Assembly: GCA_030054735.1 (NCBI GenBank)
Contig: JASGVX010000063.1
Coordinates: forward strand, 1 to 48,854
DNA from: Methanobacteriota archaeon
GTDB lineage: Archaea; Halobacteriota; Methanosarcinia; Methanosarcinales; Methanosarcinaceae
Reading direction: 5' to 3'
Length of the DNA: 48,854 bases
This document shows positions 7,578 to 41,473 of the stretch, in pieces; within the stretch, counting starts at the first letter, position 1, and every line of letters begins with the position of its first letter. Made by a program: the position numbers and the translations under genes. Under the pieces are notes generated by a model. That model searched no databases. It was not told the origin of the DNA and saw only the letters and a program-made list of their open reading frames with translations.

Positions 7578-10500
7578 AGCTGAAAAACCTCTACATAGAA
7601 AATATCCGGAGCTATAAAAAGCTGGACTTCACTTTTGAAGACGGAGTGACTGTAATTTCCGGGGTAAACGGCAGCGGAAAATCAAGCCTGCTCGAAGCCT
7701 GCTTTATGGGGCTTTTCGGGAGTAAGATCCTTTCAAAGGACTTTGTGCTTGCTGATATGATTTTCAAAGGAGCTGAGAGTGCAAAGATCAAGCTCGGCTT
7801 TGAACACATGGGGCATGAGTATCTCCTTGAACAGGCTTTCAGGTACTCTTCTAAAAGTGAAAGTGCTTCAAGCTCAAGGTGCGTACTCTTTGTTGATGGG
7901 GAAAACGTAGTTGACCAGGCGACCCGCAGCTATGAAGAGGTCTGTGCCCTCCTGAATATGGACGAAGAAGCATACAGGAACTGCGCGTATATCCGGCAGG
8001 GGGAAATCGACGTCCTTATCAATGCAAAGCCAAAAGACAGGCAGCGCATGATTGATGACCTTCTGCAGCTCGGAAAACTTGAGGAGTACCGCGAAAGGGC
8101 AGCTTATGCGAAAACGGCTGTCAGAAGGCTTGAAAGGGATACAAAAAACAGCTTCTCAGCTGTGAAAGCCGAAATCGAGGGAATTGAAAGCACCGGGCCT
8201 GTTGCAGCCGTTAATAGGCTCAGGAAAAAGGTTAAAGATGCTGACTCTTCCCTGGTTAGCCTTAATGATAAGAAAGAATTTGCGGCTGCACGCAAAGGAG
8301 AACTCGATATCAGGATTGCCGAGTACAGGGAACGCCTGCAAGAAATTGAAGCTTTGAAACAGGCTATCCATAAGTCTCAGGAGGATAAGGCCAGCTGCTT
8401 TAAAGAAAAGGAAACTTTTTCAGAAGAAGTCCAGGTTCAAAGGCGTGTTTTGCTTGAACTCGGGGACGAAAATGCCGGCTTGAGGGAAGAATGCGGTTTT
8501 GGGGACATTGAAATTGAGCCTCTCCTTTTGCGCCAGGAAAAAGAGGAATCTTTTTCAAGGGAAAAAGTGAATGCCGCATCAAAAGAACTTGCCCTGCTGC
8601 TGAAAGAAGAAGAAACCGGCGTAGAGGCATTCCATGAGCTTGAAAAAGAAAAGGCTGAAAATGAGCGTACTCTTGTTGAATGCAGAAGCAGTATAGGGGC
8701 TGCAAATAAGGAAATTGAAGGTTTCAGGGCAAATATAAAGCAGCTCGATGAGGAAAATAAAAGGGTGAGAGAAAAAGCAGGTTTTGGGGCTGCTGATGAA
8801 ATCATTTCAGTCATAAAGGGACTTGAAGAAAGGGAAAGCCTTCTCAGAGACCGGAAAAATGAGGTCTCGACAAAACTTGGCCTGGCCCTCAAGGAAAAGG
8901 AAACGGGAGATGCTGGTCTCTGTGAGCTCGATACGGAAATCCAAAACTGCAGAGCCGCAGTCATGAAAGGAAGTACTGAGATTAAGGTGCTTGAACAGGA
9001 AGTCAGGGAAAACTCAAAAACAGTGCTGGATATTCAGGAGCAGAAATCCGGGGTTTTTGCGGAGTTGAAGGAGCTCGGCTTTGATGAGGACCAGCTCGAA
9101 AACCTGGAGGATTTCAACGATCTTTTACTGGAAAACAAAAACCGGCTGCACGGAAAAGAAAAGGAGCTTGAAGCTACTTTAAGGGAAATAGAAAACAGCC
9201 TCCGTAAAAACCGGGAGCTTCTTGCCAAAGGGAAGTGCCCTACCTGCGGGCAGGAGTTGAAAGGATCAGAAATCGCATGCACTGCAGAGGAATGCGAACA
9301 GAAAAAAGAAAACCTTTCATCTGAACTTGAGGACATAAAGACGCAAAACCTTGAACTTGAGAAAAAGCTAAACCTGCTCAAGGACGCAAAAAAACTGGAG
9401 AAGCAGGCATCTGATTATGATCTAAAAATCGAAAAGCTCGTTGATAAAGCAAAAGCTTCCGGAAAACTAATAGAGACTCACAGAGCCAGGATAGAGGAAG
9501 ATTCCCTGAAGCTTGAAAACCTCAATAAGCGGAAACAGGAACTTGAAGCTTCAGGAGCCCAGTTACTTTCAGACATTAAAGCCATGCGGGACCAGGAAGA
9601 TGAGGCAAAAAAAGCTCACAGTGAAAGTGAAAAGGCTCTCAGGGAGGCAAAAGTTTTTGAAAGAAAACTTGCCGAAAACGCCTCTGAAATAGAATCCCTG
9701 AACGGTAAAATCCGGACATCTATTGCGCTTATAGAAAATTACGGGCAGAGGCTTGAAGAGCTTAATGAGAAACTGAAGGCATTTTCAGAAAAGGAAACCC
9801 TGTCAAAAGAAAAACTCGAAGCTCTCGAACTTTCCCTTGAAGCTGTACGGAAAAAAGAAGAGGAGTCAAAAAAAGCCCATGCCGAAAGCGAAAGGCTTCT
9901 TGCGCAGGCAAAAAAGCTCCAGGCTAACCTGCTCCGCATGGAAATTCTCAGACATAAAATCTCCGAGCTTGAGACCGGCATCAAAAACCTTGGAGAAAAA
10001 ATAGCTTTCTTTGACCGCGAGATTCTTGAACGCAGCGACAGGATAAGGCAGATGCAAGAGAAACTGGAAGGAAATAAGCTTGCAGAACTCCATCAGAAGC
10101 GCATCCAGTTTGAAGAAGCACAGGCAAATATTACAGAGAAAATCCGGGAAATAACTGCCGAAAAGGATACTTTTCTCAAAGAGATCGGTATGATAGAAAA
10201 CAACTTAAAGCGTTTAAGCGACCTTAAAGAAGAACTTGGGATTCTTGAAAACAAAAGGCTATACCTTGAAGCCGTATATAATAACGCCGATGAGCTTGAA
10301 AATACTTATACGCGCGTCCGGGCTGATATGCGAGCAAGGAACATAGGAGCTCTTTCAGTCCTCTTAAATGAGATGTTTGGCTTCATGTACGCAAATAACG
10401 CTTATTCTCATATCGAACTTGACCCCGAATACAACCTGACGGTCTACAGAAAAGATGGGACTCCTCTTGAGCCCAAACTCCTTAGTGGAGGCGAGCGTGC

Positions 10501-10786
10501 AATCTTCAATCTTGTCCTGCGCTGTGCCATCTACAGGCTTCTTGCCCTCGGCTTTGGTGGAGATAAGCCAGAAGGGCTTCCTCCAATGATTTTGGACGAA
10601 CCCACAGTTTTCCTTGACCGCGGGCATGTCAGGCAGCTTTTAAAACTCATAGACATGATGCGCAGTATAGGAGTAGGGCAAATAATAGTGGTCTCTCACG
10701 ACGAGTCCCTGATTGATTCGGCAGACCATGTCTTCCGGGTAGAAAAAGACCCCCTTACTAATATGTCCTCAATTACACGGATTTAA
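7574..10786 (+). CDS. rad50: DNA double-strand break repair ATPase Rad50
   Basis: Rad50 is the SMC-like ATPase partner of Mre11. The GTG start lies inside the mre11 stop. The 1070 residues show an N-terminal Walker A (GVNGSGKSS, residues 30-38), two long charged coiled-coil arms, and a zinc hook Cys-Pro-Thr-Cys (Cys555/Cys558) near the midpoint. The C-terminal half ends with the ABC signature (LLSGGERAIFNL) and Walker B (PPMILDEPTVFLD), then a D-loop/His switch (VVSHDE). All motifs needed for ATP-driven dimerisation are present. Length and order are normal for the family. Confidence 0.97.
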   Translation: MKLKNLYIENIRSYKKLDFTFEDGVTVISGVNGSGKSSLLEACFMGLFGSKILSKDFVLADMIFKGAESAKIKLGFEHMGHEYLLEQAFRYSSKSESASSSRCVLFVDGENVVDQATRSYEEVCALLNMDEEAYRNCAYIRQGEIDVLINAKPKDRQRMIDDLLQLGKLEEYRERAAYAKTAVRRLERDTKNSFSAVKAEIEGIESTGPVAAVNRLRKKVKDADSSLVSLNDKKEFAAARKGELDIRIAEYRERLQEIEALKQAIHKSQEDKASCFKEKETFSEEVQVQRRVLLELGDENAGLREECGFGDIEIEPLLLRQEKEESFSREKVNAASKELALLLKEEETGVEAFHELEKEKAENERTLVECRSSIGAANKEIEGFRANIKQLDEENKRVREKAGFGAADEIISVIKGLEERESLLRDRKNEVSTKLGLALKEKETGDAGLCELDTEIQNCRAAVMKGSTEIKVLEQEVRENSKTVLDIQEQKSGVFAELKELGFDEDQLENLEDFNDLLLENKNRLHGKEKELEATLREIENSLRKNRELLAKGKCPTCGQELKGSEIACTAEECEQKKENLSSELEDIKTQNLELEKKLNLLKDAKKLEKQASDYDLKIEKLVDKAKASGKLIETHRARIEEDSLKLENLNKRKQELEASGAQLLSDIKAMRDQEDEAKKAHSESEKALREAKVFERKLAENASEIESLNGKIRTSIALIENYGQRLEELNEKLKAFSEKETLSKEKLEALELSLEAVRKKEEESKKAHAESERLLAQAKKLQANLLRMEILRHKISELETGIKNLGEKIAFFDREILERSDRIRQMQEKLEGNKLAELHQKRIQFEEAQANITEKIREITAEKDTFLKEIGMIENNLKRLSDLKEELGILENKRLYLEAVYNNADELENTYTRVRADMRARNIGALSVLLNEMFGFMYANNAYSHIELDPEYNLTVYRKDGTPLEPKLLSGGERAIFNLVLRCAIYRLLALGFGGDKPEGLPPMILDEPTVFLDRGHVRQLLKLIDMMRSIGVGQIIVVSHDESLIDSADHVFRVEKDPLTNMSSITRI

Positions 10787-10854
10787 TAAAACTCTAGAAA
10801 GTCCTTCCTGTATAAGAAACTAAAGGGAGTGAAAAGAAGGATGCATTTAATTTC

Positions 10855-11691
10855 TTATATTGTTTTTTCTTCTTTTTTCTTTTTTTTTGCCAGTGAATCC
10901 CAGTACACAACATAGTTGAACAGTTCATCAGTCTGCTCTTTATATTCTCCAAAAAATCTGTGGTCTTTTATCAGATAACCTTCGTCCTCGGAATTTAGGT
11001 CTTCCAGGTAGCCGTACCAGTAAACTACCATACCTTCCCCGAAAATATCGGCATATTCCCGGAACTGTTTCTTTACGTAATGCTTATGTTCAAAATCGTC
11101 CCCGAAGAGGGCTTTGCTTTCAATCCATCTTACCATATGGTCCTCTATCGGAATCGGGTCTGAAAGGACAAAGTCCGGTGTTTTGCCGTCTCCCTGAGAC
11201 CTTAATTCGGCTTCAGTTCGGTAAGTAATTCTCCTGTCGTCAAGCCATTTGCGGATGATCTCTTCTCCCATTTCTCCTTTTTTGCACTGCATCTCATGAG
11301 CGCGGGGAGAGAAGAAATAGTCTGCTTCGAGAGCTTTTCTGACCTCTTTCCTCAAACGGGGGTTTTCAATGCAGTCAAGGTGCTTAAAGAGCCAGTTTAT
11401 GTTTTTTCGGGACAGGTCACAGTTTTTAAGTATCAGGGAAGCCATGAGGGCCGGAGGAAAATGCGTATATTCTGCAAGTTCAAGAATAGACCGCCCATTC
11501 TTCCACCGCAAAAAAAGTTCCTTTTCTCTGGAATAGACTTTCCTGTGCTTGAACCTTGTCATTTTCACTACTTTCTGATTAAGAATAGTAGCAAGCATAC
11601 CTGCAGGCCTGGTGTGCTCCTCTGAGAGGCGAAAAACGTCTCCAAAATTATGAAGCGAACTATAGATTTTCTGGTATGTCTGACGGTCCAT
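10855..11691 (-). CDS. TPD-domain nuclease, archaeal homologue of CDIN1/C15orf41
   Basis: The 278-residue protein has a mainly helical N-terminal half (about 1-130, with Lys/Arg-rich DNA-binding-like helices) and a C-terminal restriction-endonuclease-like domain. The Thr-Pro-Asp signature (TPDFVLSDPIPI, residues 171-182) and WIESKALFGD (189-198) give the PD-(D/E)XK triad Asp173, Glu191, Lys193. This family (PF14811-type 'TPD') includes human CDIN1, mutated in congenital dyserythropoietic anaemia, and archaeal proteins of unknown substrate. It converges on rad50, with the two stops about 70 bp apart, which hints at but does not prove a DNA-repair role. The C-terminus is Lys-rich. Confidence 0.8.
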   Translation of the reverse strand: MDRQTYQKIYSSLHNFGDVFRLSEEHTRPAGMLATILNQKVVKMTRFKHRKVYSREKELFLRWKNGRSILELAEYTHFPPALMASLILKNCDLSRKNINWLFKHLDCIENPRLRKEVRKALEADYFFSPRAHEMQCKKGEMGEEIIRKWLDDRRITYRTEAELRSQGDGKTPDFVLSDPIPIEDHMVRWIESKALFGDDFEHKHYVKKQFREYADIFGEGMVVYWYGYLEDLNSEDEGYLIKDHRFFGEYKEQTDELFNYVVYWDSLAKKKKKEEKTI

Positions 11692-12067
11692 TTTTTATCA
11701 TTAAATCCTGTTTTTGTTTAGCATAGAAAACAAAATTGAATACCATAAATGAAAAGCGAACTTTCCAATATACAGGGAGCTTACTATCAGGAATGATGAA
11801 AATATAAGTTCTAAATATCAGTTTGGGAATTGATCTATAGTTCCATTTCCCCAAATAATAATTCTTGTTAACAAACCCCTTGGTATTATATTTGAATCAT
11901 TCCTTAATATATACTTTTATCTATTTTCTTGCCATCAAAATGTCTGACCTTCGCATTCAAAGCATGATTTAAGAAGCAAAACCTCAGAAGGCAAAACGCC
12001 CGGAAGCAAGCCATAAATTCTGGTCACATAAAGGAGTCCATGGAGGTTTGCACGAACCTTAGAAAGC

Positions 12068-12089
12068 GAGAAATACTTTCTCCTTTTTT
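12068..12089 (+). terminator. Possible hairpin-plus-T-tract terminator
   Basis: GAGAAA and TTTCTC form a six-base-pair stem with a three-base loop, followed two bases later by six T residues on the plus strand. A TATA-like TTAATATATA lies upstream at 11903-11912. Together they could delimit a short plus-strand transcript of about 150 nt (roughly 11937-12089). No protein is encoded. The rest of 11692-12197 is AT-rich with no gene I can support. Confidence 0.3.
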
Positions 12090-12197
12090 GGGTCCTGTAC
12101 TTTTTCCCGAAACTTAAGCATTCCGCTCAATTCCGTGTTAATTCGGATAATTCTGAATATATACAACAGTAATTCTGAATAAAATATATAATATTGT

Positions 12198-12929
12198 TTA
12201 ACTCCAGAACTCCTCTTCGTAATTATCAGGAAGGTCTATGCTCATCGCTTCATCAAGTTTTTTGCGTTTATCTCTCTTTTCAATCGCTTTCTCAGCTTTC
12301 TCTTCCCTGCCGAAAAGATAAATATCTTTCTTTTCTTCTTCACAGGATGAAAAGATTGTTGCATGTTTATCTCTGGAAATTACTCTTTCCTGAACCTTTG
12401 GTTTTTCCTGAACCTTTGCTTGCGGATTTGCATATATGGTCGAGTTTTCTTCAAGCGGCTCTTTTTTCAGCCTGGCTTCCAGTCTCAGGGAAGCTTTTTC
12501 AGACTCGTCGGCAACATGTCTTTTTTGAAGCCTCTCTTCAGGGCTTTTTTCAGGTTTTTCACCTCTGGATTCTTCACGGCCTCCAAAGAATAAATTTTGT
12601 GAGTCTGTTTCCGCAGCGTGAGAAGCCCTTTCTTCTCTTCTCTCTACAGGCCTTTTTTGGGGTCTTTCTACAAGCCTGGTTGGTGTCCAGTCCCCTTTTT
12701 CAGAAACGTTTTTCCATCTGGGCTTGGGCTTCTGCCCTAACTTGCGGAAGGTATCTTCAGCATAAGTGTCTTTATTACGGCCAGCCTTGTTAGACCTGAC
12801 TTTACTTGTTGTATTGTAACCTATGAGACAGGTAGGCTCCCTTGATCTCCATTCCAGACAGAAGAGGTGGCAATCCCGCCCTTTGCATGTCTGGGTTTCA
12901 TCAAGTGGACAAAGTTCTGGAAGGGTCAT
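12198..12929 (-). CDS. Hypothetical protein with N-terminal Cys cluster and charged low-complexity tail
   Basis: The first ~35 residues hold five cysteines (7, 15, 20, 24, 34) around a CPLDETQTCKGRDCHLFC segment, a spacing suitable for a zinc or iron-sulfur site. Residues about 60-243 are rich in Lys, Arg, Glu and Ser with no hydrophobic core and are probably disordered. No signal peptide or membrane segment is present. I do not recognise the family beyond its Cys-rich head. Three copies of a 21-22 bp direct repeat lie 46-110 bp upstream of the start. It is separated from prs by about 390 bp and is probably transcribed alone. Confidence 0.6.
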   Translation of the reverse strand: MTLPELCPLDETQTCKGRDCHLFCLEWRSREPTCLIGYNTTSKVRSNKAGRNKDTYAEDTFRKLGQKPKPRWKNVSEKGDWTPTRLVERPQKRPVERREERASHAAETDSQNLFFGGREESRGEKPEKSPEERLQKRHVADESEKASLRLEARLKKEPLEENSTIYANPQAKVQEKPKVQERVISRDKHATIFSSCEEEKKDIYLFGREEKAEKAIEKRDKRKKLDEAMSIDLPDNYEEEFWS

Positions 12930-12974
12930 GATAATAAGATATACAGAACAGAAAAAATAGTTAACGGTGAATAA

Positions 12975-13039
12975 GTGGAGTAAAATGATCAGAACCGTGG
13001 AAAAAATGATCAGAACCGTGGAGTAAAATGATCAGAACC
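12975..13039. repeat. Three direct 21-22 bp repeats upstream of the Cys-rich gene
   Basis: Units at 12975-12996, 12997-13017 and 13018-13039 share GTGGA..AAAATGATCAGAACC, each with a TGATCA palindrome. They lie just upstream of the minus-strand gene starting at 12929, at a distance where archaeal regulators bind. The remainder of 13040-13315 holds no recognisable gene. Confidence 0.75.
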
Positions 13040-13315
13040 CTGAAAATGTGCGAGTTTTCTTGAGCCCTTCAAGACCTTGTTGTCTCCTGCTACATGGTTG
13101 ATATTTTTTCATTAGATCTCCGGGCACAGTTATAGGGTTCGTTTATCTACTGTATGCCGGAATTTTCAAGTCTTGCGGCGGCGGGTGAAAAGAAACTAAG
13201 ATACCCCCCTTTGCAGTCATTTCTGAATAATAGCAGCCAATCAGCAAGTAAGCACCGTAAAAAATTTAATAATTTGATTTCTTAAATGGATTCTAATAGG
13301 CTTTTAACTCTGAGT

Positions 13316-14167
13316 TTAGCTCTCTGAAAGGGCTTCTGCAATAAGAGGGGCAACACTCAGTTTGCTTTCTGCTTTCTCGAGAGTGTCAGTTCCGATTATG
13401 TCTTTTACTCCAGTATTGAACAGCCTTAAAGCCGCATTTCTTGTAAGGACAGGGTGCACACAGGCGATGTGGACATCAATTGCCCCCTGGGCTTTAAGCA
13501 TCCTGATTGATTCAGCCATAGTCCCTCCGGTTGCAATCATATCGTCCACAAGAACAACATGCCTGCCGCTTACATCAAGGTTCTTTGTCTTGATTACAAC
13601 TGTATCTCCGCTGAGCCTTGTTTTCTGGAGATGGTCATGGTCAAATCCGTGTCCTGAAGCCACGTTCTTTACAAGCCCCTGAGCCCCTTCGTCTGGAGCG
13701 ACCAGCATGGGGTCCTCAAGGCCAAAACCTGCAATATATGTTCCCAGAAGATTAGCTGCATCAAGATTTCTGGCAGGGCAGGGGAAGTGGTCAAGTACAC
13801 TCTTTTCATGAATATTTATAGTAAAAATCCAGTCAGCGTTAATGCAGCGGGCAATAGCGCGGGCAGTTATGGGCTCTCCTGGTTTGAACTTCTTGTCCTG
13901 CCTGGAATAACCCATGTAAGGGATCACAACATTGATTTCAGTTGCCCCTTCACAGGCATCGATAAGCTGGAGCAGGGAGACAAAATCAGAGTCTGTGGGG
14001 GTGCTCTGGATAAGGGTTACTTTTTCGTTTTCGGTTTCCTCTGCTATTCTAAGATAGAGTTCCCCATCAGGGAAGCGGTTAAACTCGCAGAGCACGGGCT
14101 CAGTCCCTAATGCTCTGGCTGTGCGGCTGGCAAGTAACTGTGATGCTGGTCCACCTATTATCTTCAA
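13316..14167 (-). CDS. prs: Ribose-phosphate pyrophosphokinase (PRPP synthase)
   Basis: The enzyme makes PRPP from ribose 5-phosphate and ATP for nucleotide, histidine and cofactor synthesis. I place the start at the TTG at 14165-14167, giving 283 residues beginning with KIIGGPASQLLA after the initiator. GAGGT lies seven bases upstream, and archaeal Prs proteins start at this point. The longer in-frame upstream extension is Lys-rich and unlike the family. Motifs: FPDGELYLRI near the N-terminus, a conserved SRQDKKFKPGEPIT loop, the Asp-Asp PRPP motif VVLVDDMIATGGTM, and HPVLTRNA. It is followed upstream by moaC on the same strand (97-bp gap). Confidence 0.94.
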   Translation of the reverse strand: MKIIGGPASQLLASRTARALGTEPVLCEFNRFPDGELYLRIAEETENEKVTLIQSTPTDSDFVSLLQLIDACEGATEINVVIPYMGYSRQDKKFKPGEPITARAIARCINADWIFTINIHEKSVLDHFPCPARNLDAANLLGTYIAGFGLEDPMLVAPDEGAQGLVKNVASGHGFDHDHLQKTRLSGDTVVIKTKNLDVSGRHVVLVDDMIATGGTMAESIRMLKAQGAIDVHIACVHPVLTRNAALRLFNTGVKDIIGTDTLEKAESKLSVAPLIAEALSES

Positions 14168-25070: not shown

Positions 25071-25477
25071 TTAGGAAGTCTCTTCTTTTTCACCTGTGGT
25101 TCCTGATAGAACATATTCTGTTCCTTTTCCTGTAGTGCCGATTTGTTCAAATATCTTTAAAGAAACTAATTCTGCCAGGTTCCGAGAAGACGTTCTCTTA
25201 ATTGTGTTGGAAATTTCCTGATATTCCTTGTATGTAATCTTTCCCTTTTCTTTTGCGTAGAATACAGCTTTAATCTGCCATTCATTAAGACCGATAGTTC
25301 TAAGATATTCTTCATTTAAAATCCATTTTTTGAAGATTACACGAAAACCCTGATACTCTTCAAAAACCGGCTCGCATTAGCAAAAGCTACGGCTGATTCT
25401 ACGGTTCTCTCATCGAATTTTTCTTTGAATTCGAGCGTTTCGGATTCGCCGGATTTGATAAGGGTTTGGAGGTTCAT
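25071..25477 (-). pseudogene. AlbA_2-domain (Schlafen-like) ATP-binding protein, internally deleted
   Basis: The ATG overlaps the pglX stop as ATGA. The first ~34 codons match the start of AlbA_2 proteins (SGESETLEFKEKFDERTVESAVAFAN), where the protein should continue for several hundred residues. Instead the sequence jumps, in another frame, to the C-terminal part: EPVFEEYQGFRVIFKK, then a winged-helix-like region (ITYKEYQEISNTIKRTSSRNL) and the stop at 25071-25073. So a large internal segment has been deleted and the frame broken. Such genes accompany some BREX loci. Confidence 0.7.
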
Positions 25478-26982
25478 ATCTTCCCCACCAACCCCTCAAA
25501 CTTCTTATAATTCACCACAACCCCATCATCCAGATCAATCTCAATCATCTGATCCGCCTTATGCTGAAGCAGTTCATCATACTTAACGAGTTCATTGATC
25601 TTTTTATTGAGTATAGCAAGTTCTGATTCGGCTTTTCCACTATTCTTAGAATTTTCAGTAATTTCTTTTTCAAGAAGCGACCTGTGAGAGTCAAGCTTCG
25701 ATTCAAAGTCCAGTAAGTAATCTATCCTCATCTTCGCTAAGGTAGTTTTATCATACCTGTGCATGTAAACGAGCGCATTGAACACTTTTCCTTTTTCCGA
25801 AGAAGTAAAGAGCCAGTAAATCGGCCTCTTCTTATACATCTTTACGTGATCTTTGTAGAAATCCCTCAGGAAATAATTCCGGATAACCTTTTCAGGAGCT
25901 TCATTTTTCTTCGAAAGCGCCCCTGCAATAAAGTCCAGGTTTTCCGAAAGTGTTTCCGCCCCGAAAGTGAGCTTCAAAAACTCCTTGAATCTGCCTACAA
26001 TGTCGTCCGTATAATATTCGTCATCGAGGATCGGAATAATATTATCTTCGTCCGGCAGGAAAGAAGCTCCTGGAACTTTTTCTTTAAAATCAGCAAGTTT
26101 TTCTCCCTGATTTGCGAGTATCGGCCCTTCTTTTTCAAAAGAATACCTTCCAAACATGCAGCCGACAGCATAGGAAATTAATTCTTTTACGGTATCGGTA
26201 AGCAGTAAAGCTTCCAGTTCTTCCTCAGTTTTTTTGTCGCCATAGCGGTAATATGGGTTGCAGGTCAGCGTGATTTCAGAAAGCGGTACATCCGGCGTCA
26301 GTTCATCCTGCAAACCGTAGGCTTCGATGAAAATGCGGTTATTCTCTTCCTCCAGCCGCTGCATTTCAAGAGTCATTTCTTTCCAGTGAGAGCGGAGTTT
26401 GATGTAGGTTTCATGGAGAGTTGGATGGAGATATTCTGACTTTAATAGTGGGAGAGTGGTGAAATCCCAGGAGGTTTCGTAGGAATCCCAGTCTGATTTT
26501 GATATATTAAGTAAACTATTAGCAATTAATTGTACTGTAGGTTGAGTTTCAATTCTGAATGCTGGGAGTGCTCTTAAATTACCAACTTTAAAGTGCAAAG
26601 TTGGATTTAGGACTGACGTCAATCTACTTACTATTTTGGAATTTAAATAAGATATTATACACTCTACAGATACCTCTAAAGTCGGAAAACCAGCTGGGTT
26701 AACACTATCAAATTTATGATATTTAGGTTTTAGCCTAGCTGAAAAAATACCTGATGTAATGTCAGACCAAGTAAAACCATCTTTTGAAAAAGTTTTTTCC
26801 CCTTGTATCCCAGAATTTTGCTGCTCTTTTATTTTCTTACCATCATCTTTCCATAAAATAAGATACTCGAGGTTTCCATACCATTTTCGAAATTCTCCAC
26901 CTTTATGATATATATACCAAAAAGAGTTGTCTTTAGACTGGATATTTGTTTTATCTAATGATACCTCTTGCCATAATCTCAA
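25474..26982 (-). pseudogene. pglX: C-terminal half of BREX methyltransferase PglX
   Basis: This is the continuation of the pglX gene beyond the MITE. Coding sequence starts right at the MITE edge ([15 protein letters not shown], at 27050) and runs through [14 protein letters not shown], a segment typical of the target-recognition part of PglX. The first start codon is at 26982, giving 502 residues. The C-terminus has a coiled-coil ([17 protein letters not shown]) and ends FEGLVGKI. It contains the substrate-recognition and C-terminal regions but no catalytic motif. If translated separately it could not methylate DNA alone. The stop overlaps the start of the AlbA_2 remnant. Confidence 0.88.
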
Positions 26983-27054: not shown

Positions 27055-27215
27055 CAGGCTGTCTCAAAACTCAAACCATTTCTACAATTGGATAGTGAGA
27101 ACCGTTAACTTTAAAAACATGACCACTTAAAACAGAGAAATTTAGATGTGAATTAACCTTATAGTAGAAAAAATTGACACAATTGTAGAATTAACTTTAG
27201 TTTTGAGACAGCCTG
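27055..27215. mobile_element. MITE element A, full copy inside pglX (161 bp)
   Basis: The element starts CAGGCTGTCTCAAAACT and ends with its inverted complement AGTTTTGAGACAGCCTG. Subterminal TTCTACAATTG and CAATTGTAGAA continue the inverted repeat. It is flanked by a 4-bp duplication CTGT (27051-27054 and 27216-27219). Removing the element and one CTGT joins LYT to GKYF in frame. It has no gene of its own, so it needs a transposase in trans. A second copy of the same length lies at 36355-36515. Confidence 0.92.
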
Positions 27216-29136
27216 CTGTATATAATTTTGCAATTAATTCACTCACCCAATACGCAATCGGACTCCCAGGAATCTTCTTGAAGTCGGCGGCGGAGGCGCG
27301 ATAGAACCAGCAACAATTTGAATTTTTGATGGCTTCCAGTGTTTTAGGGGATTGGTTTTCTGCTCCTCGGAAATCAGAGAGCCTAACATAGCCACCTTTA
27401 AAGTTTGAGTAATGAGCATTTTCTAAAGAAAATGTGCATACAGGAATACAGGCAGGCTCAAATGCATTATATTCAAGCTGTGCTAAACTTGTAATAGTGC
27501 AATTTTCGAGGATGTAAGAACGTAAATCTTCATAAGAAGAAATAAACATCCAAACATAAGGAGTGACAAAGACGAGCTGACCTTTTGGCAAAGTTAGCTC
27601 AATATTACGAACCATAAAGGCAGAGAACAGATCAGATTTCACATCAGCATAATTATCTTTAAGGAATGTCTTCAGCCTATTATTCATGCCTTTGCCGCCC
27701 ATATAAGGAAGATTGGCTATGACCACGTGGTATTTCGGGCTGAGGTAGTCAGCTTGTTTCAGAGCCTGCAGGACTTTCTGATGAGTTGAAAGATGGGAGA
27801 GGTTTTCAGAAAGGTTCTTCGATTCCAGCAGGTGTAAAAGATCAGATACATCCTTTGCAGCCGGACGAATAAGAGACCCAAAATTATCGGCTTCTGCGAA
27901 CTGGGACAGAGTAGCTATGTGAGCATTGGTAAAAAGCTCACTTCCAACTGCATCTATATAAGCATTGAGTTCTCCCTGCTCAAAAGTAACGTTTTCCAGC
28001 ATGCAAATATTGGGATAAACCTCTTTATTGAAAAAGCGGCGGTCTTTCCCCCTCGCCTTCATAGTCAGCGCAAAACCTGCAAGTTCCCCTGCACGCCTAT
28101 CAATCTCGATCCCGAAAAGGTTATGGGCCAGGATCATTTCCGGAATTTCGGAAGGAGTGTAGCCTTCTTCTTCGTAAATCGCATACAAGAGGTCAAAAGC
28201 ATAAACAAGCATGTGCCCCGAACCGCAGGCAGGGTCGCATATTTTGATCTCTTCCGGTGAATTAATTTTAAGAAAATCACTTTCCTGCTGTTCAGGTTTT
28301 ATATAATACTCCATCCTGTCAACAAGGCTGGATTCCGGGCGGTTGAGCATCCACAGGCGGCCCAGGGAGTTTTCAACAAGATAACGGACAATCCAGTGAG
28401 GAGTGAAAAGCTGGGTAACAGCAGGGATGTTTTCCTTGCTGATCTTAATATTCTTCTTCAGGTCAGCAAAGACTTTGTCCTTCTTTGGTGCAATATAGTA
28501 CTGGTAGATCCAGCCTATGATTTCAACTTCCTGCCAGTCTTCTTCCGGAATAATTGAGTTCAGGTCGTGCAGAACCGAGCCTGTATGGAGAAGCTTATCA
28601 GGGAAAAGGAGTTCAGTATAGTCTTCGATTTTCTCAAAGAGGAAAGGCATTATTTTGTTCAAATAATTGCAGAGCTTGAGGATCAGGTATTTGTAGAGCT
28701 CTTCGTCTTTATTTTCTGCTTTAAGGTCAAGAACTAAATCTCGGTTAAGGTTCAGGGAATCAAGTTTCAGGGCATTTGTAAGGAGGTCGGGTTCGGGTTT
28801 ATTCGGGTCGCTTGAAGTGAAAACTCTAATATGGTCTGGGAGGCAGCCGTTCATCTCCATGAACTTGAGGGCAAGAAGGCGGTTGAACCAGGTATAGGTT
28901 ACTTCTTCCATGACCTGTTCGTAGCCTTTTCCCTTAATCTGCTTCACAAGCTGAGATCTCTGGTTTTTGATTCTTGAATTAAAGACTCTGCCGTTAATAA
29001 CAACTGAATCGGCATGTTCCTCCACGGCATGGATTTCTTCAGGAAAAATTCCATAATAGGCTGCCTGGCTCCTTACTTCTGCACTTAACTTCTCCCTAAC
29101 CTTGTTTGAGAATTCGATAATTTTTGCTTTGTCCAT
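27142..29136 (-). pseudogene. pglX: N-terminal half of BREX adenine methyltransferase PglX, interrupted by a MITE
   Basis: PglX methylates adenine in BREX recognition sites to mark self DNA. I place the start at the ATG at 29134-29136 (MDKAKIIEFSNKVREKLSAEV), matching the family; an in-frame start 36 codons upstream is less likely. Motif I is CDPACGSGHMLVYAF; motif IV reads Asn-Leu-Pro-Tyr (VIANLPYMGGKG) instead of Asn-Pro-Pro-Tyr. Native coding ends at 27216; the frame then enters the MITE and stops at 27142. Without the MITE the gene 25474-29136 would encode about 1165 residues, normal for PglX. Confidence 0.9.
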
Positions 29137-29369
29137 ATTTCCAGAACCCGATTTCATTTTCCAACTGGCTGAGAAATTTATATGACTTATTATATGTGAT
29201 GGGTTTATAAGTTTTTTTAGTTTTGACCTGTTCAGGCTCTTCATTTTAATTTATCTTCCTGAAATTCGAATCAAAGGTACGGCTTTATTTGGCGGGTTCG
29301 GGTTTTATGCTAAATTTTTTTGAAAGTCGCCTGGCTGGGCGACATCTTTTATTACCTGAATTGTAATCT

Positions 29370-36659: not shown

Positions 36660-36926
36660 TTATTTAACTGTCAAAGTCAGGTTGTTAAGATGGTAGCGTA
36701 GAGATGTTTCGCAAGCAACATTTTCATACTGTTTAGAGACTAAGTGGACAGAATGTTTGTTGACTGCCATATTCAGAACAGTACGAAGGATGTTTTCACA
36801 TGTGAGAGAACCGTTGATCTTGATAGTTACATGATCTTTGAGAGGTTGTAACACAGCATCAATACATTCTTTTGACCTTAATTCGATTTTTGAACCATAT
36901 CTAGATTTAGATGTGAAAAGAGACAT
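36660..36926 (-). pseudogene. N-terminal fragment of another transposase (ISH3-like)
   Basis: An 88-residue frame contains LQPLKDHVTIKINGSL, and YENVACETSLRYHLNNL near the end. This looks like the N-terminal region of ISH3-type archaeal transposases, which lack similarity to the next fragment. The catalytic DDE part is absent. Together with the fragment at 36517 it marks the border between the BREX locus and the RiPP island. Confidence 0.45.
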
Positions 36927-37009: not shown

Positions 37010-37969
37010 TTATATGTTATTTGATATTAATTGGCTAATTTGATGGATAATACTCTCTTTTGCTCGCTGTTGACGCAAAATAGTCAACAATATAAAGTTT
37101 TCACCTTCTTTAATAAATCCGTTTAGAAAAGGATTATTAATATTTAAAATATTAGATTGAGCTCGATAAAGATAGTCTAGACTTTTTTTTGCTATATTTT
37201 CAGCAATGTCTGTGCAGAGGATTATCCTTTCAAACTCTTCAATATTATTGATTTTTTCATACATATCATGACTTTGAATTATTTCCATCAAAAAGAAACT
37301 AAAATTTTCATTTTTAAGATCGTCTTTCCAATCTTTTATATCATCAATAAGTTGCATGCTAATGTGATAATTTTCAAGAAATAAATTCAGGTCATTGAGA
37401 TAATTTTGATTTAAGTTTTTAGGACATAGACAAGTAAAAACAATATTGTTAATTTTTAGAGGAGAGAATTTATTCCCAAGAGCTTTTATATCTTTTTCCG
37501 AATATACATTCATCGATTTCATATGGTCTTTTTCCCATAAAATGCAATGAATGTAATCCCCGTAGATCTTCAGTACATTTCTATTAAAAGTAGTCCCTAA
37601 TTTTTTCATTAATTCGCCAAGCTGTAATGTTGCCTTTAATAAAAAATAATCAGAGTAAATAATATTTCTGTAAAGGTCATCCTGAGAGAGTTTTTTGTCT
37701 ATAATGTCATCTTGGACAAATATATGATAACTGAACCACAGGTTAAACTTTACTAATTCTTCTACAACCTCTTTTTTCCTTGGAATTTCAAAATTATAAC
37801 TCAACCAAAATGGGTAATATAAGTGAAAATCTAAGGGGACTCGATTTGGTTCAGTTCCTCTACTCCTTAGTAGTAACATAATTTCTTCTTTAAAACGGGG
37901 TTCTATTTCATTCAACTCTGATTGAATTATATCCATAAGACATGGAGCAAATTTTTTCCTTATATCCAT
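37010..37969 (-). CDS. Class I isoprenoid-synthase-fold protein of the RiPP locus (ComQ-like candidate)
   Basis: The 319-residue, mainly helical protein has both aspartate-rich motifs of trans-isoprenyl diphosphate synthases: Asp-Asp-Ile-Ile-Asp at residues 87-91 (FVQDDIIDKK) and Asp-Asp-Ile-Lys-Asp at 209-213 (QLIDDIKDWKDD). These bind Mg2+ and a prenyl diphosphate. The N-terminal and middle regions differ from housekeeping GGPP/FPP synthases, so it is probably specialised. Its ATG lies inside the end of the radical SAM gene (10-bp overlap), so the two are translationally coupled. By analogy with ComQ, which prenylates the ComX peptide, it could attach an isoprenoid to the precursor; it could instead make a free terpenoid. 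The gene is AT-rich relative to housekeeping neighbours. Confidence 0.72.
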   Translation of the reverse strand: MDIRKKFAPCLMDIIQSELNEIEPRFKEEIMLLLRSRGTEPNRVPLDFHLYYPFWLSYNFEIPRKKEVVEELVKFNLWFSYHIFVQDDIIDKKLSQDDLYRNIIYSDYFLLKATLQLGELMKKLGTTFNRNVLKIYGDYIHCILWEKDHMKSMNVYSEKDIKALGNKFSPLKINNIVFTCLCPKNLNQNYLNDLNLFLENYHISMQLIDDIKDWKDDLKNENFSFFLMEIIQSHDMYEKINNIEEFERIILCTDIAENIAKKSLDYLYRAQSNILNINNPFLNGFIKEGENFILLTILRQQRAKESIIHQISQLISNNI

Positions 37970-39312
37970 AATTTATCATTGTCCAGTAATATATCATTTA
38001 ATTCAGTAAGCAGAGGAGATTTTACAATTTCTTTAGATATCCCTTTCTCTTTCATATTCACGTAGAATATAATAGCCAATTTGTATAGGACTTTTACAAA
38101 CCCACAAAAACCTTCGTGTGGTAAACTTACATTATCATTTGTTTCATTGAAAAAATGGCTACACCCACCACCACAGAAGTTTCGAGCAACGCAACTTAAA
38201 CATTTACTTTTGTTTGCTATATGTATGCGATCTAAAAAATGCTTCAGTTTAGACTTATCTAGACAAGTATATACGTTTCCGAAGTTAAATTGATCATTAC
38301 CTATAAATCCATGGCATGGATAAATATTGCCAGATATATCTACTGACAGCATTCTTAAGCCTGCTCCACAAAAATAAGATTTAGATGTTAAAAGAGAAGG
38401 ATTTTCTGTTTCAAAACAATATAATACCATATCTCTTAAAACCCTATTTAATAGTACACCTTTATATTTATCTGATGCTACAGCGTCTTCAAATATTTCA
38501 AGATATACCTGGTATATAGCAATCAGATCTTTTTCGGTTAACAATAAGTTACTATCCTTACTCATCACTGGAGAGAAGTTTACTTGAAGACCTAGATCAT
38601 TCGTATAGTACAAAAGAAATTTTTTCATGTCCATATTTTGATGACTAAAAGTGGTTCTAATTTGTGGCTTTATTCCTGCTTCTTTCATTTTCTTTATATT
38701 TGAAACGATTTTTTCATAAGTAGGTGTGCCATCCAAGAAAGTTCGATGTTTATCGTGAGAACATTGATCTCCATCTAAAGACACTTGAACATTAAATGAA
38801 TTCTCTTTTATGAGTTTAAGGATTTCTTCGGAAATTATAGTACCATTTGTAGCAATTTCAAAATCAGTGTTATACCCATTATACTGACTTCTAATATATT
38901 CGACAATTTCTCTTATTAAAGTAAAATTTAAAAGCGGCTCTCCTCCAAAAAATTTTATTGAAATATGATTGTTGTTTGTTTTTCCGTAAAGTAAATCAAT
39001 AGCTATTTTTGCAGTTTCGAATGACATCATACCAGCATTACCATAAGTTCCACTGTTTGCAAAACAGTATTTACAGTTCATATTACATAATTGAGAAATA
39101 TTAAGTTCTAATGAACATAAGCTTGATAAAAGGTATTCAAGATCAAAAGTTTGGTTATCCTGAGAACTAAAATAAGATGTATTCTCAGTTTTTATATCGG
39201 AAAACGTCCCAAAAAAAGAGATTTTTGTATTTTCTTTCAAGTTAGAATAATTTATTTTGCCAGTCTCCAAATCTACCTGAATGTCATAATTATTAAATTT
39301 AGTTTTCTGCAA
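37960..39312 (-). CDS. Radical SAM/SPASM peptide maturase
   Basis: The 450-residue enzyme has the radical SAM cluster motif Cys76-X3-Cys80-X2-Cys83 (LCNMNCKYCFA), the glycine-rich FFGGEPLLNF (121-130), and a C-terminal SPASM domain for auxiliary iron-sulfur clusters with Cys315, 333, 371, 374, 380, 384 and 403. Residues 1-65 precede the barrel and may bind the leader peptide. Such enzymes form thioether or carbon-carbon crosslinks in peptides. The start is TTG at 39310-39312, with AAGGAAGGG shortly upstream. It lies 476 bp downstream of the precursor gene on the same strand, past a strong hairpin. Confidence 0.9.
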   Translation of the reverse strand: MQKTKFNNYDIQVDLETGKINYSNLKENTKISFFGTFSDIKTENTSYFSSQDNQTFDLEYLLSSLCSLELNISQLCNMNCKYCFANSGTYGNAGMMSFETAKIAIDLLYGKTNNNHISIKFFGGEPLLNFTLIREIVEYIRSQYNGYNTDFEIATNGTIISEEILKLIKENSFNVQVSLDGDQCSHDKHRTFLDGTPTYEKIVSNIKKMKEAGIKPQIRTTFSHQNMDMKKFLLYYTNDLGLQVNFSPVMSKDSNLLLTEKDLIAIYQVYLEIFEDAVASDKYKGVLLNRVLRDMVLYCFETENPSLLTSKSYFCGAGLRMLSVDISGNIYPCHGFIGNDQFNFGNVYTCLDKSKLKHFLDRIHIANKSKCLSCVARNFCGGGCSHFFNETNDNVSLPHEGFCGFVKVLYKLAIIFYVNMKEKGISKEIVKSPLLTELNDILLDNDKLWI

Positions 39313-39590
39313 TAAAATCCCTTCCTTAGTACAGAATGTTGAAATAATCGACTCATGTTATGACAATTTAATTACTGGGCGTTAATACTTAGACAATACT
39401 TCATAAGTAGTCCCTTTTTAAATTCTGAGGACTCGGAACTAAATTTCCTAGACACTAGCTCCATACAATGAGCTTTGCCTTGTTTTTATTATATAATTCT
39501 GTGAATTAAATGTAAAATTTGCTGACTTATATTCTAGATAATCGTTAATCAACTAATAAGCCAAAACCAAGTATATTCTAAAAAATTTGT

Positions 39591-39623
39591 AAAGAATTTC
39601 GATAAGATACTTCGAAATTCTTT
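39591..39623. terminator. 11-bp perfect stem-loop between precursor and maturase
   Basis: AAAGAATTTCG at 39591-39601 and its exact complement CGAAATTCTTT at 39613-39623 surround an 11-base loop. It lies about 165 bp after the precursor stop in a 476-bp gene-free gap (39313-39788). It may act as a partial terminator or RNA-processing site, letting the precursor be made in excess over the enzymes. No T-tract follows on the minus strand, so termination is uncertain. Confidence 0.5.
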
Positions 39624-39788
39624 GCAGAGGAGTACTTCCAATTAATAAACTTCTTTAGAGTGAAGCTTACGAAAGAGATTGACTCAGAAGTTACCCCAAT
39701 TCGGATTCATTATAATTTTTCTTAATATGAAGTTGCAGAAACCGGTGTTTACAATTATTATTGTTTTCTTGTACAAATTAATTCATTT

Positions 39789-40022
39789 TCATCCACATAG
39801 ATGATAACTGCAACCACTATCTTCTGAGTTGCCAACAATAGGCTCTTTTACCATGGCTTCAAGATTTTTTTTATCAATTGAGTTTAATTTTGTTTCCTGC
39901 TCAGAGGTGATGGAAAATCCTTCACTTTTAATCGTACTCACAGGATCTTTCAAGAAACTATCCATTAATTTCTCGTCTTTTATTAATTTACCTACAAATT
40001 CGTCTATTTTTTCTTGATTCAT
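39789..40022 (-). CDS. Candidate RiPP precursor peptide
   Basis: The 77-residue peptide has an acidic, helical leader (EKIDEFVGKLIKDEKLMDSF, then LKDPVSTIKSEGFSITSEQE) resembling NHLP/Nif11-type leaders, where an F..L..DP....S.G.. pattern is typical. A short core follows: GNSEDSGCSYHLCG at the very C-terminus, with two Cys, one Ser, one Tyr and one His. GGAGG lies nine bases before the ATG, a strong ribosome-binding site. A 16-bp palindrome lies 30-45 bp upstream near the likely transcription start. The radical SAM and isoprenoid-synthase-fold genes follow on the same strand. No protease or exporter is adjacent. The core boundary and modifications are inferred. Confidence 0.75.
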   Translation of the reverse strand: MNQEKIDEFVGKLIKDEKLMDSFLKDPVSTIKSEGFSITSEQETKLNSIDKKNLEAMVKEPIVGNSEDSGCSYHLCG

Positions 40023-40051
40023 TACTATTTTCCTCCACTCTTAAACAACGA

Positions 40052-40067
40052 TACGATACGTATCGTA
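40052..40067. promoter_or_regulatory. Perfect 16-bp palindromic operator at the precursor promoter
   Basis: TACGATACGTATCGTA reads the same on both strands. It lies 30-45 bp before the precursor ATG, where the transcription start is expected if the minus-strand TTTATTTAT near 40090-40102 is the TATA box. The divergent gene at 40221 encodes a putative ribbon-helix-helix regulator, which is the obvious candidate to bind it. No second copy was noticed in the window. Confidence 0.65.
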
Positions 40068-40220
40068 ATAATTATTACTCATACACATAGATAAATAAAT
40101 TATCCAGTTAGTATCTGTTTGCGTACACATAAACCATTTGATAAGCGCATAGTCTGTTATATATATGCATCGAAAATTTAATTAGTTAACAGATATAATT
40201 AAGTTATGAGGTGAAATCTT

Positions 40221-40787
40221 TTGACAAAACGTCGCATTTCCACCACTATTTCACAAAAACACTGGGATTTATTAAACAAGCATCTAGAAAAATTCGAAAC
40301 GCAACAAAAAGTTATAGAGCAAGCCCTAGAAAGCCTGGAAAATAGCTCAAAACAAAACTCATCATCAATTTGGGAAACGAGATGCTGGATGTTTGTTAAA
40401 TCGACAAAATCGGTCTGTTTTGTCTTAAAAGATGGTTTAAAAATGCTGATAGAAGCGGCAGATATTGAGCTGGTTAAGGAGTTTGTTACCAGAAATAAAC
40501 CAATAGAACACTCAATAGAATTTTACTTTCAAAAGCCCCTCAAGGAACTTAGTCTAAGAGAGGTTATCGATGGACTGGTCACTGTTGCGATAACGGGAAA
40601 CTGGTTTGATATAGTAGATTGTAAGGATGAAAGCAGCCACCATACACTGATGATAATACATAGCCTGGGTCTCAATAATTCTAAAATAAATGTAATAATG
40701 ATTGAAAATTTGTTTAAAACCTATGGAGTCAAAGCCGAAAGCACAATTTCCGAGAAGACCATTTTTATTAAAATATTTAAAAATTGA
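40221..40787 (+). CDS. Putative ribbon-helix-helix regulator divergent from the RiPP locus
   Basis: The 188-residue protein starts at a TTG with GAGGTGA seven bases upstream. Residues 3-41 (KRRISTTISQKHWDLLNKHL then EKFETQQKVIEQALESL) fit a ribbon-helix-helix fold: a short basic strand, then two helices. The remaining ~145 residues form a separate domain ending HSLGLNNSKINVIMIENLFK and then AESTISEKTIFIKIF, perhaps for ligand or partner binding; I do not recognise it. A TATATATATG box lies near 40157-40166. It probably controls the precursor promoter through the palindrome at 40052-40067. The RHH call rests on pattern, not on a database match. Confidence 0.65.
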   Translation: MTKRRISTTISQKHWDLLNKHLEKFETQQKVIEQALESLENSSKQNSSSIWETRCWMFVKSTKSVCFVLKDGLKMLIEAADIELVKEFVTRNKPIEHSIEFYFQKPLKELSLREVIDGLVTVAITGNWFDIVDCKDESSHHTLMIIHSLGLNNSKINVIMIENLFKTYGVKAESTISEKTIFIKIFKN

Positions 40788-41204: not shown

Positions 41205-41473
41205 CTTTCGGCAGGTCGACATTAAAAATCAGAACATTTTTCTTGATGTCGTTTTATTGTATCTCCTAGATAGAAATGAGATCAAAATTTGGTTAACATC
41301 TGGATCAACTATCACCACATATATAAATACTGGGCCATTTTTTCATAAAAGTTTAGTATGAGATATTATAATTGATCATATGTAAACCTGAAAGTTACGT
41401 ACAAATACTGCGTATTATTCCAAAATCGGCATCAACAAAGATTATGAGAAATTAAATGTCGACCTGCCGAAAG
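41205..41473. mobile_element. MITE-like element B, copy 2 (269 bp) with perfect inverted ends
   Basis: It begins CTTTCGGCAGGTCGACATT and ends with the exact 19-bp inverted complement. It matches 17039-17307 over the full length. A conserved ACCACATATATAAATACTGG lies in the centre and looks like a TATA promoter. No target duplication is obvious (flanks ATCCTT and TAAGTA). It has no credible gene. The rest of the 40788-41555 gap holds no gene; a short CCCCC/GGGG hairpin is near 40836-40858. Confidence 0.88.

Follow-up and report, generated by a model that had tools for sequence, protein, structure and literature searches.

A radical SAM/SPASM maturase paired with an isoprenoid-synthase-like protein beside an Os1348-family precursor in an archaeon: a probable locus for a cross-linked, prenylated peptide

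What kind of product could be specified by three neighbouring archaeal genes that encode a small peptide, a radical S-adenosylmethionine (SAM) enzyme with SPASM cysteines and a protein with the Asp-rich motifs of isoprenoid synthases? The question is raised by contig JASGVX010000063.1 (assembly GCA_030054735.1) of a Methanobacteriota archaeon from the Methanosarcinaceae, analysed here over all 48,854 nucleotides (nt), the window. The genes lie on the minus strand at 37010-40022 in the order precursor, maturase, isoprenoid-like gene. Judged from sequence comparison, this is probably a horizontally acquired archaeal operon for a ribosomally synthesized and post-translationally modified peptide (RiPP), whose product would be both cross-linked and prenylated.

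The 77-amino acid (aa) peptide with a strong ribosome-binding site and a C-terminal GCSYHLCG that was described in an earlier note on this DNA is present, with GGAGG nine bases before the ATG codon and a C-terminus that reads SGCSYHLCG. It matches NF038399, the model for Os1348-family leaders of the NHLP clan, at 41.2 bits (E=1.3e-10), narrowly passing the curated cut-off of 40, and the gene context agrees, with a SPASM maturase encoded downstream. Matches to this model were absent from all 14 control genomes. The predicted core holds C71, Y73, H74 and C76, and there is no Trp in the whole 77-aa sequence.

The maturase, reported in the earlier note to have complete radical SAM and SPASM cysteines, does have them: a Cx3Cx2C motif (C76, C80 and C83) and seven SPASM cysteines arranged as C315-x12-G-x4-C333, C371-x2-C-x5-C-x3-C384 and C403. 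Its TTG start codon is preceded by AAGGAAGGG. Pfam Radical_SAM (PF04055) matches with E=1.1e-19, the Pfam SPASM model scores 16.2 bits, below its cut-off, and the closest solved structure is PDB 5wgg (E=1.3e-56), which we take to be the SCIFF maturase CteB. The best-matching families, PapB, SCIFF/CteB and QhpD, are thioether formers. Identity with PapB itself, a ranthipeptide maturase, was rejected, as the best NCBIfam model (NF047865, PapB) reached 266.9 bits with an equivalog cut-off of 340 and SGCSYHLCG has no Asp or Glu downstream of Cys and no Cys-x3-Asp.

A search for the precursor family across the phylum located the same gene set in Candidatus Methanoxibalbensis ujae (G252; L and G labels are ours, for loci and genomes), an anaerobic methanotrophic (ANME) archaeon of ANME-1, order Ca. 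Methanophagales. This locus (L012), an apparent operon, has, on one strand and in this order, genes for a ParA-like ATPase, a protease of M50 type that carries a PqqD-like domain, a SPASM maturase, the Os1348 precursor, a geranylgeranyl-reductase-family flavoenzyme and a homologue of the isoprenoid enzyme. The ANME precursor scores 75.5 bits and is 35% identical to the window precursor over 57 aa (E=3e-10), and the two isoprenoid proteins are related with E=6.3e-16 (phmmer, 22% identity). The flavoenzyme matches TIGR02032 at 234.6 bits (cut-off 158.8) and, as its gene and that of the isoprenoid homologue overlap, it provides independent evidence that the ANME cluster handles a prenyl chain. 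Conservation of the 77-aa gene beside a maturase, on which the earlier note had made its proposal depend, was not refuted, this homologous precursor also adjoining a maturase. The proposed combination of RiPP precursor, SPASM maturase and isoprenoid-synthase fold recurs in an ANME-1 archaeon, and homologues of the isoprenoid enzyme adjoin NHLP-clan precursors in two bacterial phyla. The ParA-like ATPase and M50/PqqD-like pair lies at L012 10495-12649; the M50 protein is closest to the daptide intramembrane protease model, a search of the window's genome gave no match to it, and a similar pair is present in G521.

The third gene, which as reported overlaps the maturase gene (by 10 nt) and encodes both DDXXD motifs, has D87DIID91 as first Asp-rich motif (FARM) and D209DIKD213 as second (SARM), with Q206 at -3 of the SARM. 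By itself the protein gives no hit in Pfam or NCBIfam, nor among PDB sequences, and the Pfam polyprenyl synthase family, to which a canonical trans-prenyl diphosphate synthase would belong, and the terpene synthase families give none at E up to 1; its homology is established only through relatives. With the ANME protein as query, tblastn in plasmids returned a Paenibacillus cellulosilyticus protein (L021) whose gene precedes those of two NHLP precursors (TIGR03793, above cut-off), in which Trp is adjacent to the C-terminus, and a protein on a Tolypothrix plasmid after which comes one annotated as Os1348-family; no radical SAM gene is near either locus. A profile built from the three relatives (ANME, Paenibacillus and Tolypothrix) recovers the window protein with E=6.1e-20 from a background that includes shuffled controls, and when each of the four proteins in turn is left out, the profile of the other three finds it at about E=6e-20 or better among shuffled and unrelated sequences. 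The outer Asp of both motifs, W214 and D217 are invariant in all four, and the second Asp of the FARM is not kept in the ANME protein.

A precedent for the chemistry is PalX/PalQ, in which an enzyme of the isoprenoid synthase superfamily attaches a prenyl group to the Trp at the C-terminus of an NHLP precursor, a reaction boosted by the NHLP-type leader (PMC10853753). The PalQ residues compared with the window enzyme were taken from that publication, and the FARM of the Paenibacillus protein is at D89/D93, the positions given there for PalQ. Q206 is shared with PalQ; the ANME protein has Asp at the equivalent position and that of Tolypothrix has Val, and so this position is not decisive. Foldseek comparison of an AlphaFold model of the window protein, a low-confidence model with a predicted local distance difference test score (pLDDT) of 48, gave a top 50 that are almost all isoprenoid synthases (best 5zlf, E=4.7e-3), mostly prenyl diphosphate synthases, and these fold neighbours together with the PalQ-like and Os1348-linked relatives place the protein in the isoprenoid synthase superfamily. 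The model of the ANME protein (pLDDT 43) gave fold matches that are mostly noise. By analogy with PalQ, the window enzyme is most likely a peptide prenyltransferase of the kind related to trans-isoprenyl diphosphate synthases (trans-IDS).

Ten NHLP-clan precursors were compared for Cys and Trp, small numbers that include several close paralogues and a precursor (L015) that shares its genome with, but does not adjoin, a SPASM maturase. Cys is present in the last 25 aa of all seven SPASM-linked archaeal precursors and of none of the three precursors from loci where the isoprenoid enzyme occurs alone. Trp has the opposite pattern, absent from the seven and present in the isoprenoid-enzyme-only loci. 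Neither archaeal precursor paired with an isoprenoid enzyme, in the window or in ANME, has Trp, and in both a Tyr is located near Cys. This pattern fits a division of labour in which Cys would be used by the radical SAM enzyme, Trp by a PalQ-like enzyme acting alone, and a different acceptor where both enzymes occur.

In the pathway that we propose, the Os1348/NHLP-type leader would recruit both modifying enzymes to the precursor. The SPASM maturase would introduce a cross-link through C71 and/or C76, the most likely bond being a thioether with a nearby residue of SGCSYHLCG. The PalQ-like enzyme would ionise an allylic diphosphate bound at its Asp-rich motifs, the donor in an archaeon probably being long, for example geranylgeranyl diphosphate (GGPP), and the prenyl group would then be transferred to an electron-rich side chain of the core other than Trp, namely Tyr73, His74 or a free Cys. 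Release of a small cross-linked lipopeptide would presumably depend on a protease and an exporter encoded elsewhere.

There are observations that weigh against this reading. The maturase falls under every equivalog cut-off, the downstream Asp or Glu that PapB would need is missing from the core, and no RiPP recognition element is obvious in the maturase. In the maturase tree, the window enzyme is not clearly grouped with the other archaeal Os1348 maturases; the ANME maturase does cluster with other archaeal SPASM maturases linked to Os1348 precursors, and given the unsettled placement of the window enzyme the two clusters with both enzymes may be separate assemblies. All characterised trans-IDS-like prenyltransferases act on Trp, according to a 2026 review (PMC13290415), whereas the window core is Trp-free, and the window enzyme retains the Gln at -3 that is tied to Trp recognition. 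Identity of the window protein to each relative is just 16-23%, and both structure models are too poor for active-site modelling. No protease or transporter gene is present in the locus. Gene content, motifs, leader family, homology and recurrence of the gene set are observed, and every chemical step, the order of the steps, the acceptor residue, the donor, the release and the biological role are predictions.

Three other explanations were weighed. The isoprenoid-fold protein might act on its own, as a prenyl diphosphate synthase or a terpene cyclase making a small terpenoid, with the peptide subject only to radical SAM modification. Retention of both DDxxD motifs and of an FQxxDD-like Gln would suit such an enzyme, as would the predominance of prenyl diphosphate synthases among its fold neighbours. 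We nevertheless consider it unlikely: the failure to match the Pfam polyprenyl and terpene synthase families argues against it, the NSE/DTE motif of class I terpene cyclases is absent, the ANME homologue does not keep the second Asp of its FARM, and the relatives of the protein adjoin NHLP-clan precursors, in Paenibacillus and Tolypothrix without a radical SAM gene nearby. Methanosarcina, moreover, already produces GGPP for its lipids. There is also little probability that the island is decaying and no longer yields a product, as might be suggested by its restriction to one genome, its AT-richness and its location beside part of a multi-copy gene family with broken copies and beside a miniature inverted-repeat transposable element (MITE)-like sequence, given that the three reading frames are intact, all catalytic motifs are retained, the precursor and maturase genes have good ribosome-binding sites and the GC content at the first codon position is of the coding type.

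The locus could alternatively direct synthesis of a redox cofactor derived from the peptide, as SPASM enzymes act on Tyr-containing precursors in the pyrroloquinoline quinone (PQQ) and mycofactocin pathways, with a membrane tail supplied through the isoprenoid gene and no peptide being secreted. Both archaeal precursors that are paired with an isoprenoid enzyme have Tyr in the core, which would agree with this, as would the lack of a transporter, and methanogens do use a prenylated electron carrier, methanophenazine. Participation in methanophenazine biosynthesis was ruled out, as was any other core cofactor, by the presence of the locus in a single genome of the family; with a conserved Cys in place of a Glu/Val-Tyr pair, and closest maturases that form Cys thioethers, this explanation is very unlikely.

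The reading that we prefer, a cross-linked and prenylated RiPP, can be taken further, tentatively and with rather less confidence, to an archaeal RiPP class in which a trans-IDS-like enzyme would attach a C20 isoprenoid of archaeal lipid synthesis to Tyr, His or Cys of a core cross-linked by a radical SAM enzyme and in which, in ANME, the adjacent geranylgeranyl-reductase-family enzyme would saturate the tail to a phytanyl-like chain. If this is correct, we know of no earlier archaeal prenylated RiPP, and the enzymes would be the first pair of a radical SAM maturase and a trans-IDS-like peptide prenyltransferase, the latter also the first of its kind to work on a Trp-free precursor. The locus would then be a case of archaeal lipid precursors (GGPP) diverted into lipopeptides, might supply methanogens and methane oxidisers with a signalling or antagonistic molecule, and would provide a new enzyme for peptide lipidation.

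The compact three-gene locus of the earlier note stands as to the genes and their order (Table 1), but not entirely as to its compactness, since 477 nt separate precursor from maturase and this gap contains a terminator-like hairpin. Tight coupling is thus limited to the maturase and isoprenoid genes. By analogy with RiPP operons that overproduce their precursor, the hairpin is a candidate partial terminator that could provide surplus precursor mRNA. Upstream of the precursor gene, a perfect 16-bp palindrome (0.01 expected by chance, allowing up to 2 mismatches) is a candidate operator. The divergent regulator gene of the earlier note is present; its family is, however, genus-wide, found in 15 of 31 genomes, and the regulator was rejected as a cluster-specific part as its relatives adjoin unrelated genes. 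The genes beside which this family recurs are varied, and several times include one for a proteasome-activating-nucleotidase-like AAA ATPase.

Table 1. Features of the locus, with positions in the window
Feature	Position	Strand	Basis or remark
Predicted peptide prenyltransferase (319 aa), trans-IDS-like, of isoprenoid-synthase fold	37010..37969	-	Profile of relatives, Foldseek
SARM, D209-D-I-K-D213, then W214 and D217	37331..37345	-	D209, D213, W214 and D217 invariant
FARM, D87-D-I-I-D91	37697..37711	-	D87 and D91 identical across all four lineages
Radical SAM/SPASM peptide maturase, 450 aa, TTG start	37960..39312	-	PF04055, NF047865 and PDB 5wgg matches
SPASM cysteines C315 to C403, all seven	38104..38370	-	Sequence
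Radical SAM motif C76-x3-C80-x2-C83	39064..39087	-	Sequence
Hairpin, 12-bp stem, then CAAATTTTTT (T run)	39591..39623	-	Folding z=-2.1; 7/200 shuffles fold equally well
RiPP precursor, 77 aa, Os1348 family of NHLP clan	39789..40022	-	NF038399 match, alignment with ANME precursor
Precursor leader, about aa 1-58			
Predicted core, aa 67-77, EDSGCSYHLCG	39792..39824	-	Leader model stops before core
Shine-Dalgarno GGAGG of precursor gene	40032..40036	-	Nine bases 5′ of ATG
Perfect palindrome, 16 bp, TACGATACGTATCGTA	40052..40067	.	Divergent intergenic region
Putative regulator, 188 aa, ribbon-helix-helix-like N-terminus	40221..40787	+	Divergent from RiPP genes

Archaeal loci with an Os1348 precursor and a SPASM maturase but no isoprenoid gene were found in the same genus (L060), the same class (L061 and L062) and in G342 (L013), and the prenylation module therefore appears to have been added onto a broader type of radical SAM RiPP in archaea. 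The L060 locus (8227-13765, in G020) has a precursor with the core FSGRCGSAID, a SPASM maturase and two more radical-SAM-like genes, and is a different archaeal RiPP type. L061 and L062 (G521 and G525) are larger archaeal RiPP clusters, with several B12-type-like radical SAM proteins, a ParA-like ATPase, an M50/PqqD-like protein and a SPASM maturase; the G521 precursor ends in SKSGCISPCM.

The three-gene set is absent from the 111 other genomes of the family. It was not found in the other Methanosarcina genomes that were searched, where the earlier note had suggested that it be sought. At the thresholds set, no other genome of the family yielded a relative of the isoprenoid protein or of the maturase: there was one match in 60 relatives, one in the 112 family genomes at E<=1e-50, and one in 238 genomes of the class with the four-sequence isoprenoid-protein profile. 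A single-protein search of GTDB species genomes with the isoprenoid enzyme gave 25 pattern matches, none of them confirmed, and an alignment of the two archaeal enzymes found only the ANME locus; two more matches, weak and short, are in ANME-1 relatives. Searches of viral contigs and phages gave no match to the enzyme, and the window protein as query had no plasmid match. The locus has a GC content of 29-31%, with 40-45% in the left flank, and adjoins a BREX system, a fragment of a repeated gene family and a MITE-like repeat. Contamination of the contig is unlikely, as the regulator on it belongs to a genus-wide family, and the island was most probably acquired horizontally. An 88-aa open reading frame (ORF) at its edge (36660-36926) is a probable insertion-sequence relic; it represents part of a family that has 11 matches in the genome, several of them containing stops. 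The MITE-like element (41205-41473) is 269 bp long with perfect 18-bp terminal inverted repeats, CTTTCGGCAGGTCGACAT and ATGTCGACCTGCCGAAAG. In the BREX system, pglX is split into two ORFs (25474-26982 and 27142-29244) that correspond to successive halves of a single PglX model (1-658 and 677-1170) across a short gap, and is either broken, affected by a sequencing error or phase-variable.

Among known systems, the nearest relative is PalX/PalQ of Paenibacillus alvei, in which, as in the window, an NHLP-clan precursor adjoins an isoprenoid-synthase-superfamily enzyme with FARM and SARM. Its layout is that of the P. cellulosilyticus locus, the enzyme of which is a homologue of the window enzyme; with that protein as a stand-in for PalQ, identity to the window enzyme is ~17%. 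PalX/PalQ differs in being bacterial, in a precursor that ends in Trp and in having no radical SAM gene. The earlier note, which knew of no described archaeal system with this gene set, had missed this relative; no description of the combination, archaeal or other, was found in the literature, a search of limited coverage also revealing no prenylated or isoprenoid-modified archaeal RiPP and no pairing of a radical SAM enzyme with a trans-IDS-like enzyme. A survey of archaeal RiPPs (PMC12144867) predicts radical-SAM-modified members, the characterised ones being lanthipeptides, and does not mention a prenyl-modified RiPP. ComQ, which modifies ComX, and the P domain of ChrPC (PMC13290415) are likewise isoprenoid-synthase-superfamily enzymes that prenylate ribosomal peptides, as predicted for the window enzyme, but their acceptors are only Trp and no radical SAM partner is described; ComQ is also without the SARM present in the window enzyme, and ChrPC is fused to a cyclase. 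The Os1348 cluster of Pseudomonas sp. Os17 (PMC7726476) has a precursor of the same family (NF038399) and different enzymes, with HEXXH, a SagB-type dehydrogenase and an acetyltransferase, and neither a radical SAM nor an isoprenoid gene. PapB, SCIFF (CteB) and QhpD have the radical SAM and SPASM architecture and full cysteine set in common with the window maturase, which is below all equivalog cut-offs and is encoded with a different precursor family. Each part of the locus, then, has known relatives, and what is new is that archaeal loci combine a radical SAM maturase and a trans-IDS-like enzyme for precursors that are Trp-free and contain Cys.

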